Below are positions 16,859-27,024 of a DNA stretch of 34,336 nt, piece by piece. Source of the stretch: Lachnospiraceae bacterium (GTDB taxonomy: Bacteria > Bacteroidota > Bacteroidia > Bacteroidales > Muribaculaceae); contig JAMPGZ010000030.1 of assembly GCA_023663655.1 (NCBI GenBank), positions 1 through 34,336 of the forward strand, given 5' to 3'. Under the pieces are notes generated by a model. That model had not been told where the DNA came from. It saw only the letters and a list, made by a program, of their open reading frames with translations, and ran no database searches. Made by a program: the position numbers and the translations under genes. Within the stretch, counting starts at the first letter, position 1. Every line of letters begins with the position of its first letter.

Positions 16859-18364
16859 ATGTTTAATCAACCTAAGGGTCTGATACCCGCCGCCCTCAGC
16901 AACATGGGCGAACGCTTTGGATTTTACGTCATGATGGCAATCCTGACGTTATTCCTCATGTCAAAATTCGACCTTGACGGAAGTCAAGCCGGAGCTCTCT
17001 ACTCAGTATTCTACTGTGCCATCTACATCCTTGCGCTTGTGGGTGGTGTGATTGCCGACAAAACTAAGAACTACAAGGGCACCATCATCGCCGGTTTGCT
17101 CGTGATGTCGTTAGGCTATGCCCTTCTCGCCATCCCCGCGCTCATAACCACTGAGTGAATCGCTCTCGGAGCTCTCCTCGTGATAGCATTCGGTAACGGT
17201 CTGTTCAAGGGTAACCTCCAGGCTGTGGTAGGTCAGCTTTACGACGATCCGAAATGGAGCCACAAACGCGACTCCGGCTTCCAGATTTTCTATATGTTCA
17301 TCAACATCGGCGGTTGCATCGCTCCGTTTGTTGCCGTATGGGTGCGCAACACATTTGTAAAGATGCAGGGCTATGCTTACAATGCCGACCTCCCCGGACT
17401 CTGCAACGCCCTCCTTGCCGACCGTGAAGTGAACACCGACCTCTTCCTCGAATATGCCAACCAGGTATCACAGACCGAGGTCAACCTCTCTACCCTGCGC
17501 GAGTTTGCCCAGAACTATCTTGAGGCATTCAACACCGGATTCCACTACGCATTCTCAGTGGCAATCGTTGCGATGCTCATCTCGCTCGTCATCTTCCTCT
17601 GCTTCAAGAAGCAGCTTCCCACCCCTGGAGCCAAGAAAGCTGCGGCTGCCGGTGAAAAATCAGCTGCCGAAAAGGAGGAAATCCGTCAATCGGCTAAAGA
17701 AATCAAGCAGCGCATAATGGCTCTTATGGCAGTGTTTGGCGTGGTTATCTTCTTCTGGTTCTCATTCCATCAGAATGGTTTGACACTCACCATGTTTGCC
17801 AAAGACTACACCCTCCTTGCACTTGGCAATATGCAGCTTTCAGCCGAGATATTCCAGTCCATCAACCCGTTTGTTGTGGTATTCCTCACCCCTATCATCA
17901 TGTGGATCTTCTCAGCTCTCGCCCGTCGCGGCAAAGAGCCTTCTACACCGCGTAAGATAGCCATCGGTATGGGAATCGCCGCAATCGCCTACGTTGTGAT
18001 GTGTGTCGCTTCAATCGGCTTGCCTTCTCAGGCTTCGCTTGCCGGTGAACCGGTGCCAACCGCTGACCGCGTCACCCCGTGGATTCTGTTCTCGGTTTAT
18101 TTCATCCTCACTGTTGCCGAGCTGTTCATCTCCCCGCTCGGTCTGTCATTCGTGTCCAAGGTGGCTCCCGCTCATCTTCAGGGCTTGATGCAGGGATGCT
18201 GGCTTGGCGCTACCGCCGTGGGCAACGCCTGTCTGTTCCTCGGAGCAGTAATGTATCAGAGCATCTCCCTCTCGGCTACATGGAGCGTGTTTGCAATCGT
18301 ATGCTTCATCTCGATGGCAGTTATGCTTTGTATGGTAAAATGGCTTGAAAGAGTCGCTAAATAA
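16859..18364 (+). pseudogene. POT/PTR-family peptide:proton symporter with one in-frame TGA stop
   Basis: The reading frame from ATG 16859 to the stop at 18364 encodes a full-length (about 500-residue) proton-coupled oligopeptide transporter, but codon 17156-17158 is TGA. Before it: NMGERFGFYVMMAILTLFLM and GGVIADKTKNYKG, the classical POT N-terminal half. After it, in the same frame: GNGLFKGNLQAVVGQLYDD, FQIFYMFINIGG, a charged loop rich in Lys, Ala and Glu, and more membrane helices to the end. The break falls at TTE-stop-IALGALLV, where TGG (Trp) is one base away. The remaining sequence shows no frameshift or decay, so the stop is either very recent, a sequencing error, or read through. 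If real, the product is a 99-residue fragment, or a second piece starting near 17180. Confidence 0.85.
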
Positions 18365-18390
18365 AAGGTTGTTTAATAATATCCTGAACC

Positions 18391-18828
18391 GTGTTTAAGA
18401 ACCAACCTTCAGCACTATATGTCTTATCGCTCGCCAATATGGGTGAGCGATTTGGCTATTATACGATGCTTGCCATCTTCCTGCTTTTCCTTCAGGCTAA
18501 GTTCGGATTCGATGCCGCAGTGTCGGGACAGATCTACGCCATATTCCTCGCCGTGGTCTATTTCACCCCGCTAATCGGCGGATGGGTGGCTGACCGGTGG
18601 AGCTTCTCAAAATGCGTGGTGACAGGCATCTTCATCATGTTTGCCGGATACCTCGTCATGGCGATACCCACCGAGATACGCTCCACGTCGTCGCTCGTCA
18701 TCCTGTGCCTCGCGCTGGCTATGATAGCCTGTGGCACGGGACTCTTCAAAGGCAACCTTCAGGTGATGATAGGCGACCTGTGCCCGGTAGAATGCACCCA
18801 AAACGCACTCTGCAAAGAGTGCCCCTGA
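18391..18828 (+). pseudogene. second POT-family peptide transporter, 3' truncated at a repeat
   Basis: A paralogue of the preceding gene starting at GTG 18391; the N-terminus aligns with its neighbour (MFKNQPSALYVLSLANMGERF). It keeps about 130 genuine residues, through GGWVADRWSFSKC and GTGLFKGNLQVMIGDL. It then runs into the 256-bp repeat at about 18772, which contributes 15 foreign residues (starting CPVECTQNALCK) and a stop. A whole POT protein has about 500 residues, so roughly 70 percent is missing, and no further POT sequence is found downstream. It starts 26 bases after the first POT gene. The repeat's leading bases (gacctgt) coincide with the conserved GDLY codons of the transporter, which may mark the recombination point. 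Confidence 0.85.
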
Positions 18829-24364: not shown

Positions 24365-24611
24365 ATGCCTGAAATATTCAATCTCTACGGTTACAGTTTT
24401 TTTCTTTTGGAGCAAAGAACACGATCCGATCCACGTACACGTAGAGGGTGCTGACGGATATGCCACATTTGATTGGGACAATGGCTCTGAAACATTCATT
24501 GAACGCGAATGTTATAACATTAAGGCTGGAGATCTCCGCAAAATCAAAAGAGCTATTGCCGACCGTAAGCAGGATATTTTTGACAAATGGAACGAATATT
24601 TTAATAAGTAA
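24365..24611 (+). pseudogene. DUF4160 protein, frameshifted in a T7 tract
   Basis: Reading from ATG 24365 gives MPEIFNLYGYSF and then leaves frame. If one T of the seven at 24397-24403 is dropped, the frame continues as FFWSKEHDPIHVHVEG..., then WDNGSETFIE, AGDLRKIKRAIADRKQDIF and NEYFNK, ending at TAA 24609-24611. That is a complete DUF4160 protein of about 81 residues. As written, translation stops at 24454 after 29 residues. DUF4160 genes commonly sit beside DUF2442 genes, as here (6 bases apart), and the pair has the size and layout of a toxin-antitoxin module, though I know of no proven activity. The +1 shift lies in a homopolymer, so it could be a phase-variable switch, a sequencing error, or true decay. 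Confidence 0.8.
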
Positions 24612-24617
24612 TGCGAT

Positions 24618-25025
24618 ATGAAGATTACCCGAATATGGTTTGACACCGACTACATCTACGGAGTGGATGAGAGCGGAAAAGAATACCGCCAATCCTTACT
24701 CTGGTATCCGAACCTAAGGAATGCCGGGTTGGAAGAACGCATGAACTACAAGTTTGGATTTCGCGGTATTCATTGGAGAGAACTTGACGAAGACATCAGC
24801 TTTGAAAGTTTTGCGGACGAAAACGCAGAACCGACGGCACTGCAGCGTTTCTTCCTCACACATAAAGAGATTAAAATTTCTGAATTTGCAAAAATGATTG
24901 GCATCGACGCATCATTGCTACGCAATTACATAAATGGATTTAAAAAGCCATCCAAAGACCGCGAGCAAATAATTCTGAACGGCATCCACACTCTTGCAAA
25001 AGACTACGCTACTGCATCATTTTAA
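24618..25025 (+). CDS. DUF2442 protein with C-terminal helix-turn-helix
   Basis: A 135-residue protein. The N-terminal part (about 1-70: ITRIWFDTDYIYGVDESGKEY and RGIHWRELDEDISFESF) is DUF2442. The C-terminal part (about 80-130) is a helix-turn-helix of the type found in antitoxins and phage regulators: KISEFAKMIGIDASLLRNYINGFKKPS. It follows the DUF4160 gene after 6 bases. If the pair is a toxin-antitoxin-like module, this would be the DNA-binding partner, with the dyad at 24319-24336 as a candidate target. The gene is intact although its partner is frameshifted. Assignment of the two domains is by eye. Confidence 0.82.
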   Translation: MKITRIWFDTDYIYGVDESGKEYRQSLLWYPNLRNAGLEERMNYKFGFRGIHWRELDEDISFESFADENAEPTALQRFFLTHKEIKISEFAKMIGIDASLLRNYINGFKKPSKDREQIILNGIHTLAKDYATASF

Positions 25026-25042
25026 CCGACTATTCTCTAAAC

Positions 25043-25081
25043 AAACCGCAGACGCACCACTACTCGGTTCGTCTGCGGTTT
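25043..25081 (+). terminator. hairpin after the DUF2442 gene
   Basis: A perfect 12-base stem (25043-25054 with 25070-25081, 15-base loop) lies 17 bases after the stop. It has no U-run beyond the TTT closing the stem, so termination is likely but not certain. Confidence 0.55.
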
Positions 25082-25200
25082 CGTAATACGACGACTCGTC
25101 CCCAGTAGCCAATATCATCTCCCAACCACACGCACATTTAACATATCTATTTTTCTAATTTCAATCTTTTTTACCATATTTGCACTTGAATTCACCACTA

Positions 25201-25490
25201 AGGCTGTAAAGACAGCCTCGCTGGATTCAACTTTTCGTTGAATTGATGGAATAATCCATCAAAGGTGTTATTGAAATTCTATCTTCAATTCTCAAACTTG
25301 GCGGTTTGCAACACTTTCGAAGATGAATTGACAATGGCACCTGCATCGGTAGCTATACCCACTCCCGAGAGGGAGAAATGTATATGCTTAATCGGTGTGG
25401 GGCTGTCGTCTTTTATTCGAAAGTGTAGGTACGCCAAGACCTGAGAATTGAATGAAGGACAAGATACAATCCTCACACCTTTATTTTTTT
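25201..25490 (+). ncRNA. large structured RNA with terminator tail (family not identified)
   Basis: In a gene-free stretch (25026-25641) about 290 bases fold into many perfect helices. Hairpins: 25201-25207/25212-25218; 25225-25231/25237-25243; 25243-25250/25255-25262. A long nested arm: 25284-25294/25442-25452 (11 bp), 25297-25303/25432-25438 (7 bp), 25311-25321/25416-25426 (11 bp), 25351-25358/25380-25388 (8 bp with a bulge) and 25362-25366/25371-25375 with the GNRA loop GAGA. 25261-25268 pairs with 25475-25482 (8 bp), sharing two bases with the third hairpin, so these two may alternate. A T7 run follows to 25490. Possible G-U pairs and the T-run favour the plus strand. No RNase P, tmRNA or SRP signature, and no reverse transcriptase or IscB/TnpB gene, was seen beside it. 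From 25491 to 25641 I see only AT-rich sequence. Confidence 0.75.
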
Positions 25491-25641
25491 AATTTAACCG
25501 TTTTCAGGGGATTGGGAACAAACAGATACTGCAATGGAAACAATAAATTTTTGTCTAATAAAAAGTTCCTGTCGAAATGCCTTCTTAGAAAAAGTCATCA
25601 CCTCTTATTTCAATCATAGTTAAATTTTTAATTTTAAATTT

Positions 25642-26988
25642 ATGAAAAAGATTCCCCTACTAATTTCTATTTTAAGTTGCATTATCATCTATAGTTGCTC
25701 TTCGAAACCGGAAAAACTATTCAGAGTGCAGGAAGACGGTTTATTTGGGTTTATTGACAGTATTGGAAACATCAAAATCAAACCCCAATATAAGTATGTC
25801 GGTAATTTTTCCGAGGATGGTTACGCTCTCATTATTACTGATGTAAAAATATTAAACAGACATATAAATCTGACCTATGGATTTATCGACACCAAAAATA
25901 ATTTAGTTGTAGATACAATAAATAAATTGATTATCGATAGCGATTATTGCCCTCGATTGTGGCATGAAAATGATTATGAAGATTTTTTTTGGCATTTTAT
26001 ACATAAAGACATAGGATTCAATGAGTTCTACTTTGAAAATATTAGATTATCTGAAAATAAATATCCATATATGAATGAATCAACAAAAAAATTTGGATAC
26101 AAAAATATTAAAGGAGATACCATCATTCCGGCTAAATTTCTTTCCGCCAATCCATTCTATAAAGGAGTAGCTATTGTATCGGAATATCCTGATAGTTCCG
26201 GCAATACAAACGATATTTCTTTAATTAATCAAAAAGGCGATTATATAAAAGAAAGAGGATGGAGCTATGTTCATGACTTCACCAAAAAAGATTTGACATG
26301 GAGTCTTGAATTTGATATAGATATCGACGCAGATGGAAAAATGTCAGACAATGGAGGAATATGGACTCTAATAGATTTAAATGGAAATATCATAATTGGT
26401 CCAATAAGCCCATTTAAAATAGCAACAAGATCATATACTGGCTATGCTTTTAATGGTTATCCAGAAAATAATGACTTATATCTTTATAGTTTTCCTAAAC
26501 TTTATGGGGTACATCTCGGCTATTCTTACATAAACAAAGATGGCAAATATGCTACTGATTATAATAATGATAACTCCATAACTTTCTTTGGAGATGAAAA
26601 CACTAAAGGTGAAGTTTTCGGAGATGCAACTAATTTTTCTGAAGGTTTTGCGGGCGTAAAAGGTCACATTGGTGATGAAGCATTTTGGACTTTCATGAAT
26701 CCTGATTTCGAAATAGTTACAGAGGAAAAATATGATTCAGTAAAAACATTTCATGAAAATATGGCTGTCGTTAAACAACATGGAGAGTGGGGTGTAATAA
26801 ACACGGATTTTGAAATAATAATTCCCTTTAAATTTTCAGAAATATCTAATTTTCAGAATGGTCTTGCCTATGCAAAAATTTCTGGCACAAAATATGACCG
26901 AGAAGGTTATATAAATTCCACAGGAGAATTCATTTGGGAAACAAAACGCAAAAAATGGAAATCGAAACACAGTACACATAATAATTAA
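25642..26988 (+). CDS. WG-repeat lipoprotein
   Basis: A 448-residue lipoprotein with the lipobox ending at Cys19 (IIYSC). It is built from WG/KWG-type beta repeats, each of the form aromatic-Gly-hydrophobic-x-Asp/Asn...G...I.P.(F/Y)...F..G.A. Clear examples are LFGFIDSIGNIKIKPQYKYV (about 34-53), KFGYKNIKGDTIIPAKF (about 152-168) and EWGVINTDFEIIIPFKF (about 383-399), with a closing REGYINSTGEFIWETK. WG-repeat proteins are abundant in Bacteroidota and their function is mostly unknown; surface or periplasmic binding is plausible. The gene is strikingly AT-rich compared with the flanking core genes (runs of aat, ata and aaa codons), suggesting horizontal origin. It stands downstream of the large structured RNA with 151 bases between. 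Confidence 0.85.
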   Translation: MKKIPLLISILSCIIIYSCSSKPEKLFRVQEDGLFGFIDSIGNIKIKPQYKYVGNFSEDGYALIITDVKILNRHINLTYGFIDTKNNLVVDTINKLIIDSDYCPRLWHENDYEDFFWHFIHKDIGFNEFYFENIRLSENKYPYMNESTKKFGYKNIKGDTIIPAKFLSANPFYKGVAIVSEYPDSSGNTNDISLINQKGDYIKERGWSYVHDFTKKDLTWSLEFDIDIDADGKMSDNGGIWTLIDLNGNIIIGPISPFKIATRSYTGYAFNGYPENNDLYLYSFPKLYGVHLGYSYINKDGKYATDYNNDNSITFFGDENTKGEVFGDATNFSEGFAGVKGHIGDEAFWTFMNPDFEIVTEEKYDSVKTFHENMAVVKQHGEWGVINTDFEIIIPFKFSEISNFQNGLAYAKISGTKYDREGYINSTGEFIWETKRKKWKSKHSTHNN

Positions 26989-27024
26989 TCAGTAATATTT
27001 ACAATCAAAATATATGACAGCATT

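Follow-up and report, generated by a model that had tools for sequence, protein, structure and literature searches.

The locus and its surroundings

The window analysed here is a stretch of 34,336 nucleotides from a Muribaculaceae genome (contig JAMPGZ010000030.1). A large folded RNA lies on its forward strand, after a DUF2442 gene (24618-25025) and before a gene for a WG-repeat protein, and the features of the RNA and of the DNA that follows it are collected in Table 1. The region 25001-27000 has a G+C content of 0.354 and 0.311, versus 0.429 and 0.519 in the flanking kilobases, suggesting that the DNA around the WG-repeat gene was acquired. A GC-rich inverted repeat followed by T's (25030-25085) stands after the DUF2442 gene and is probably its terminator. 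Just before that gene, an open reading frame on the forward strand (24370-24611), which from its appearance we take to encode a DUF4160-type protein, seems split in two frames near a T-rich run; Pfam gave no hit for the fragment 24448-24618, and 24370-25025 may encode a toxin-antitoxin-like pair whose first gene is broken. Elsewhere in the window, 17180-18828 contains two adjacent transporter pieces, the second of which (145 aa) looks truncated, since its matches to MFS/POT models are confined to their first part.

Table 1. Features of the RNA and of the adjoining DNA, in window coordinates
Feature	Coordinates	Strand	Remarks
Likely promoter -7 box, CATATTTG	25175-25182	+	found by eye; one mismatch to the Bacteroidetes motif TAnnTTTG
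5' hairpin 1	25202-25217	+	loop AAAG; TAGAG-type loops instead in many relatives
5' hairpins 2 and 3	25224-25260	+	25224-25243 and 25245-25260; found in some relatives only
Strand p ('1')	25261-25273	+	partners: 25475-25482 (P1) or q
Hairpin A	25280-25325	+	a 25280-25286 / b 25319-25325; h1 25293-25297 / 25304-25308
Hairpin A, apical loop l1 and exchange strands v1, v2	l1 25297-25303; v1 25287-25294; v2 25312-25319	+	
Strand q ('2')	25332-25350	+	partners: p (25263-25273) or r
Variable central hairpin	25351-25390	+	GNRA (GAGA) cap
Strand r ('3')	25391-25408	+	partners: q or t (25394-25402 / 25471-25479, by inspection), beside the U-tract
Hairpin B	25408-25460	+	c 25408-25418 / d 25450-25460; h2 25427-25430 / 25439-25442
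Hairpin B, loop l2 and exchange strands v2', v1'	l2 25432-25438; v2' 25418-25425; v1' 25442-25449	+	l2 kisses l1; v2' pairs with v2, v1' with v1
Strand t ('4')	25467-25482	+	25467-25474 with r or the downstream loop; 25475-25482 with p
U-tract, TTTATTTTTTT	25480-25490	+	
Downstream hairpin	25498-25519	+	loop ('5', 25507-25514) pairs with 25467-25474 over the U-tract
29-codon ORF	25534-25623	+	ATG 48 nt after the core, the family-typical distance
WG-repeat protein gene	25642-26988	+	448 aa, lipoprotein-like start; starts 156 nt after the core

Fold of the window copy

The folded RNA in the window is real. The minimum free energy of 25191-25500 is -118.3 kcal/mol, versus -69.7 +/- 5.0 kcal/mol in dinucleotide shuffles (n = 100), none of which was equally stable (0/100; z -9.7). 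The helices that the original prediction had drawn over 25201-25490 are present, including the three 5' hairpins, the nested arm with its GAGA (GNRA) cap and the T7 at 25484-25490, as is the 8-bp pairing of 25261-25268 with 25475-25482. The absence of a long coding frame was also correctly called, given that in the list of ORFs of at least 40 aa none that overlaps the RNA, on either strand, exceeds 63 aa. In the cmscan against Rfam 15 that had been proposed as a check on the claim of no known family, the window RNA matched no family at the gathering score, and its matches at permissive E-values were noise only.

Copies and distribution of the family

When 310 bases of the window were used in blastn, the suggested route to homologues within the Muribaculaceae, 19 of 61 relatives matched, all of the same family and some with several copies, while none of the 24 genomes of other families did. 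Covariance models were needed to go further. A complete core, running from (A)AAGGTGTTATTG to CAATCCTCACACC plus the U-tract over 202-235 nt, was found in 29 of the 30 loci returned by a fuzzy motif search. The covariance model R1 was built from 25 cores, and R2 is a broader model; the alignments A1 and A2 hold 25 and 22 of the 29 full-core loci.

With five to seven candidates scored per genome, strict filters and drawn samples, which make the counts lower bounds, R1 detected the RNA in at least 196 of 397 genomes of the family Muribaculaceae (27 of 30 genera) and in at least 42 of 295 genomes of the order, and R2 in at least 36 of 395 genomes of the phylum (4 in its own order, 30 elsewhere in the class and 2 elsewhere in the phylum). 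A search of ten genomes with laxer filters left three in which R1 had no match (G001, G009 and G020). An exact pattern of the compact type has at least 118 matches in named genomes, and those listed include Flavobacterium, Chryseobacterium, Elizabethkingia, Pedobacter, Mucilaginibacter, Parabacteroides and Bacteroides sp. 519. Also among the matches listed, L196, L230 and L262 lie in metagenome bins whose contigs carry the labels Lentisphaerae, Pelotomaculum and Ignavibacteriae, through mis-binning or transfer.

The genome of the window itself carries 14 sense copies by R2 at E<=1.8e-5, all but one of which reach E<=6.4e-10, and additionally one weak row and one antisense echo. The sequences of 12 of the 14 copies were inspected. 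Ten of the 11 other displayed copies (L174-L184) belong to a longer divergent subtype of 241-265 nt with an enlarged central hairpin, the remaining one measures 203 nt, and the GGTGTT-type start of the window copy recurs in none of these 11. The idea of an RNA class confined to this accessory region is not borne out, given that the RNA is multi-copy and spread across the phylum.

R1 is specific: it returned one sense site per locus in 91 loci (357,675 bases, E up to 1e-6) and in 54 loci (241,858 bases, E up to 1e-4). Its opposite-strand matches are weak and few (12 of 103 rows and 2 of 56 rows), and these antisense echoes appear because one half of the RNA is close to the reverse complement of the other. 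In 38 other loci (20 + 18), no Rfam 15 family reached threshold over the RNA, and the matches elsewhere in these loci were tRNAs and one rteR sRNA. The latter (RF04181, L171:37-119) shares its locus with a member that stands before a RibD-like gene, as judged by eye, a hint that some copies may have moved with conjugative elements. The window copy had no blastn match in phage and plasmid collections, and one exact pattern had none in viral contigs. As far as these searches reach, the RNA is new, as had been proposed, and has no Rfam family; its sequences point to a large, apparently undescribed family that is Bacteroidota-wide.

Covariation and architecture

Covariation was measured on the alignment A6, whose 42 members were selected for diversity and fitted to a long-arm model, so that it favours the long arm. 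Two-sided changes occur in 54 of its 60 pairs, and 93.7% of the cells hold standard pairs. The covariation score is 0.641, versus 0.077-0.117 when the partners are slid by one to three columns and 0.234 after shuffling. The covariation that had been called for among homologues is clearly there, well above both kinds of control, as in a conserved structured RNA. Among 3279 pair cells, 411 are G-U and 85 are A-C, and this excess indicates that the fold has been selected as RNA of the forward strand.

The long arm is the fold given by RNAalifold and by the minimum free energy. A scan that presumes no structure was run on 108 sequences (109 of the 145 loci, leaving aside L018, L019, L026 and 33 divergent ones, minus one near-identical row), with a substitution-shuffled null from a custom script in the style of R-scape, which is not R-scape itself. 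Thirteen canonical pairs reached E<0.05, and they fall in 25287-25291 / 25445-25449, in 25297-25303 / 25432-25438 (three pairs) and in 25314-25318 / 25419-25424; three additional pairs are cross-talk inside the kissing columns. No pair of a-b, c-d or t-5 was picked by this column scan. A second test, which is independent of exact columns, compared the complementarity of segments of the same RNA with that of swapped segments in 60 loci. The exchange helices gave z values of 32 (v1-v1') and 30 (v2-v2') and the loop-loop contact l1-l2 gave 16.6, followed by the stems of the two hairpins (c-d 12.6, a-b 10.8, h1-h1' 9.1 and h2-h2' 6.3). The helices of the long arm were weaker (b-c 5.1, a-d 3.3), and the controls lay at -1.7 (a-c), 2.0 (b-d), -1.3 (v1-v2) and 0.1 (v1-v2').

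The kissing contact l1-l2 consists of 359 Watson-Crick pairs and one G-U among 360 cells. In the window, the segments abut exactly, as in a four-way junction: a meets v1 and v2 meets b in one half, and c meets v2' and v1' meets d in the other (Table 1). Two hairpins, A and B, which exchange strands and kiss at their tips, are therefore better supported by the sequences than a plain long arm. The long arm was dropped as the sole fold given that a-b and c-d outscore a-d and b-c. Nonetheless, the latter retain some support: in the alignment fitted to them, 86.4% of the cells of a-d and 89.3% of those of b-c are paired, with two-sided changes in 5/5 and 3/5 pairs, respectively. The nested minimum free energy structure of the window core is the long arm, at -92.0 kcal/mol; the two-hairpin state comes to -75.1 kcal/mol when its inter-hairpin helices are left out. 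The mean energies of the three inter-hairpin helices over 60 loci sum to about -20 kcal/mol, and by this rough sum, which is not a calculation, the two states may be close in energy.

Pairing across the U-tract

The 3' strand of the core, CAATCCTC (25467-25474), complements GGGGATTG (25507-25514), the loop of a small hairpin past the U-tract. Over 174 loci, own pairs score 15.4 versus 12.4 for swapped ones (z 16.7, reached in 0 of 5000 permutations). As controls, a downstream window at +60 to +102 gave z -0.1 and another segment of the core z 0.8. The signal is found in each set, with z 8.9 in set A (Muribaculaceae-type, n = 91), 9.2 in set B (n = 54) and 3.7 in set C (flavobacterial-type, n = 18), while controls within the sets range from -0.9 to 1.8; it is weak among the own-genome copies (z 1.9, n = 11). 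Compensation can be followed in pairs such as AATCTCC / GGAGATT, GTTCCC / GGGAAC and GTGCCT / AGGCAC. The conserved unit thus reaches to about 25520, rather than ending at 25490 as predicted.

The longest T run reaches at least six in 65% of the 174 loci, versus 2.1% of random upstream windows, and the U run exceeds the opposing A run in 144 of the 174. The U-tract on which the proposal of a dedicated terminator was based does exist. The proposal is right in part only, given that a helix conserved over the U-tract implies that the selected RNA includes the read-through transcript.

Competing strands

Four strands of the core, p, q, r and t, can pair in more than one way. In the window, p (25263-25273) and q (25332-25342) can form 11 pairs with -15.0 kcal/mol, and by inspection nine pairs can form between r and t, immediately ahead of the U-tract. 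The strongest of these helices in the window is p-q, not r-t (-14.2 kcal/mol, for an r-t segment cut by one base). When own and swapped segments are compared, z values of 9.4 (p-q), 7.8 (q-r), 6.4 (p-t) and 4.5 (r-t) are obtained, with 11.9 for the sub-segments q2-r2 and 7.2 for p1-t1, and the controls p-r and q-t lie at -0.7 and -1.3. Without the 15 GGTG-type members, the values are 5.7 (p-q), 6.9 (q-r), 4.7 (r-t), 1.5 (p-t), 9.8 (q2-r2) and 4.7 (p1-t1). The complementarity of q2-r2 and p1-t1 backs a closed state, which thus has support alongside the two-hairpin one.

Mean duplex energies in 57 of 60 loci, three being dropped because a segment was shorter than 5 nt, are -16.3 kcal/mol for r-t, -13.4 for q-r, -9.8 for p-q, -9.8 for t-5 and -5.9 for p-t. 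The best q-r and r-t helices overlap by at least 3 nt of r in 57/57 of these loci, and the best p-q and q-r helices by at least 3 nt of q in 54/57, overlaps that the segment windows partly force. Mutually exclusive helices and a terminator hairpin before a U-tract, as in an attenuator, are found here at the level of the sequence, and to this extent the compatibility with a switch that had been noted is supported.

Position relative to promoters and genes

An ORF of at least 60 aa begins within 260 nt downstream in 140 of 145 loci. Its start lies 40-80 nt after the core in 97 of the 140, nearer in 22 and further in 21; given that 18 of the 22 nearer loci have an in-frame ATG at 40-80 nt, the total at this distance rises to 115/140. 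Upstream, the exact motif TAnnTTTG occurs within 140 nt in 148 of 172 loci, versus 10 of 165 control windows from 420-560 nt upstream. Ahead of the window copy, TAnnTTTG is not present in its exact form, and the one-mismatch CATATTTG stands there instead. Several Muribaculaceae loci, L009, L010, L013 and L028 among them, have a TAACATTTTTT-like stretch before a TAnnTTTGC box, perhaps a special promoter class, and in other loci a GGACATATT-like block, perhaps a further part of the RNA, precedes the core.

The family thus often sits between promoter and start codon, on the strand of the gene, with a looser arrangement in flavobacterial-type loci. Among the flavobacterial-type matches listed, 94 of 118 are followed within 420 nt by an ORF of at least 60 aa, at distances spread over the range, and 24 of 118 are not; by eye, their downstream products include SusC-like and sigma-factor-like proteins. 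The upstream promoter motif and the start codon 40-80 nt after the core indicate that the RNA is most likely a cis-acting 5' leader. Its neighbours had been said not to explain it, a statement that fails in most of the relatives examined, where the RNA stands like a 5' leader before the next gene. In the window, the usual place of the start codon (25534) is taken by the 29-codon ORF, and the long gene lies 156 nt from the core. This copy may have lost its original gene, or it may act on the WG gene via the short ORF.

By our own crude rules, 94 of the 140 downstream proteins have a signal-peptide signature and 35 a lipobox-like one. Pfam was run on the first 330 aa of 130 of the 140 ORFs, leaving out short, redundant or spurious-looking ones (L007, L011, L017, L018, L042, L067, L069, L088, L096 and L125). 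Fifty-two families were found over the 130 proteins, with LRR_5 (BspA-type) in 22 and TerB in 6; of the two proteins with WG hits, one is the WG-repeat protein of the window. With 52 families over 130 proteins, no shared pathway of the kind expected for a riboswitch that senses a pathway metabolite was found among the downstream genes.

Proposed mechanism and alternative explanations

On balance, we judge it probable that the RNA is a cis-acting 5' leader with attenuator-like strands 1-4. The strand logic would be that of a 1-2-3-4 attenuator in which p, q, r and t act as segments 1 to 4, with a fifth strand able to capture strand 4. Pairing of p with q and of r with t would place a GC-rich terminator hairpin against the U-tract and turn the gene off, and pairing of q with r and of p with t would remove the terminator. 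In the read-through RNA, the downstream loop '5' would capture strand t, and the gene would be on or its translation adjusted. The balance could be tipped by a ligand, by a protein or by the folding kinetics of the kissing hairpins. In the order of synthesis, p-q and hairpin A would form first and r-t would then terminate, so that read-through would require something that opens hairpin A or holds it. With unrelated genes downstream, a pathway metabolite is a less likely input than a global signal or a general factor that binds RNA or acts in transcription. A more ambitious version, which we put forward tentatively and regard as possible rather than probable, is a phylum-wide switch that senses a global input, either a second messenger or a general factor, via an intramolecular double crossover of kissing hairpins and gates the transcription of scattered surface, envelope and other accessory genes.

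A cis leader could also act on translation or mRNA stability only, with the U-tract as a linker or an extension of P1, and with the zipped hairpins and the downstream pseudoknot placing or blocking the ribosome. We consider this rather unlikely, but it deserves weight, given that the U-tract is crossed by the covarying t-5 helix, whose end lies about 20-30 nt before the usual start codon, and that the U runs pair partly with A runs in P1. The frequency of U runs of at least six, their excess over the opposing A runs and the GC-rich r-t helix that immediately precedes them speak for termination instead. Complementarity that covaries across the U-tract speaks, together with the narrow spacing of start codons in the Bacteroidales set, against a stand-alone trans-acting RNA of about 290 nt freed at its own terminator. 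Such an RNA seems improbable, even if a promoter motif and a U-tract are present, the next 260 nt lack an ORF of at least 60 aa in 5 of the 145 loci, and flavobacterial-type copies often lie further from a gene (with 24 of the 118 listed lacking such an ORF within 420 nt).

The large imperfect palindrome, the several copies per genome and the weak opposite-strand matches of the model (12/103 and 2/56 rows) would fit an element that matters as DNA, such as a mobile palindrome or a recombination site. That is very improbable in view of the 411 G-U versus 85 A-C cells on the forward strand, of the spacing to promoter and start codon, and of the lack of matches to the window copy in phages and plasmids and to one exact pattern in viral contigs. 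On the G-U excess and the lack of phage or plasmid matches, we put aside explanations by a mobile element, phage or plasmid, and we did so with an integron attC site because the promoter and start-codon spacing does not fit one. A retron was also considered; inspection by eye of the window ORFs of at least 100 aa showed no recognisable reverse transcriptase. The size, the leader position and the switch logic are riboswitch-like, but there is hardly any chance that a known riboswitch or Rfam class includes the RNA as a divergent member, given that cmscan of the window and 38 other loci gave no family at threshold over the RNA.

Relation to known RNAs and significance

The attenuator-like leader preferred here resembles transcription attenuators and terminator-type riboswitches in its 5' leader position, its competing helices and the U-tract after the 3-4 helix. 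It differs from them in that no leader peptide or ligand is known, that a fifth strand past the U-tract covaries with strand 4, and that its halves, nearly reverse complements of each other, are linked through kissing and exchange helices. In the extended kissing complex of CopA and CopT, two hairpins pair loop-to-loop and along both flanks, forming a four-way junction. Here, in contrast, both hairpins belong to one RNA, and covariation across many families has preserved their contact. Riboswitches for second messengers (such as GEMM/c-di-GMP) are found at several sites per genome, ahead of unrelated genes of which many encode exported proteins. The RNA described here shares these traits, but it has no Rfam match.

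The HMP-PP riboswitch is reported to have a terminator-embedded aptamer (PMC6478431). FopS and GibS of Bacteroides are likewise a multi-copy RNA family in Bacteroidota, and the description of FopS, a trans-acting RNA with a single-stranded 5' stretch and a terminator hairpin, sets it apart from the large folded leader found here (PMC11697453). A trans-acting sRNA of the FopS type, going by that description, was considered and rejected, its single-stranded 5' seed plus terminator hairpin not being seen in the folds or alignments. In the literature searched, no description of this RNA was found; the motif tables that supplement PMC8040213 and PMC9723704, which list many unnamed structured RNAs, may include it without a name. 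Flavo-1 (RF01705) and Bacteroidales-1 (RF01693) appear in PMC2864571 as Bacteroidota RNA motifs without an assigned function. Neither reached threshold at any locus tested.

The Bacteroidota count among the main bacteria of the gut, and their RNA regulation has been mapped less fully than that of other groups. The fold of this RNA is supported almost base by base, and two hairpins zipped at their flanks and tips are an unusual architecture for structural work. A multi-copy, phylum-wide leader that is absent from Rfam 15 would define a readily testable regulon.
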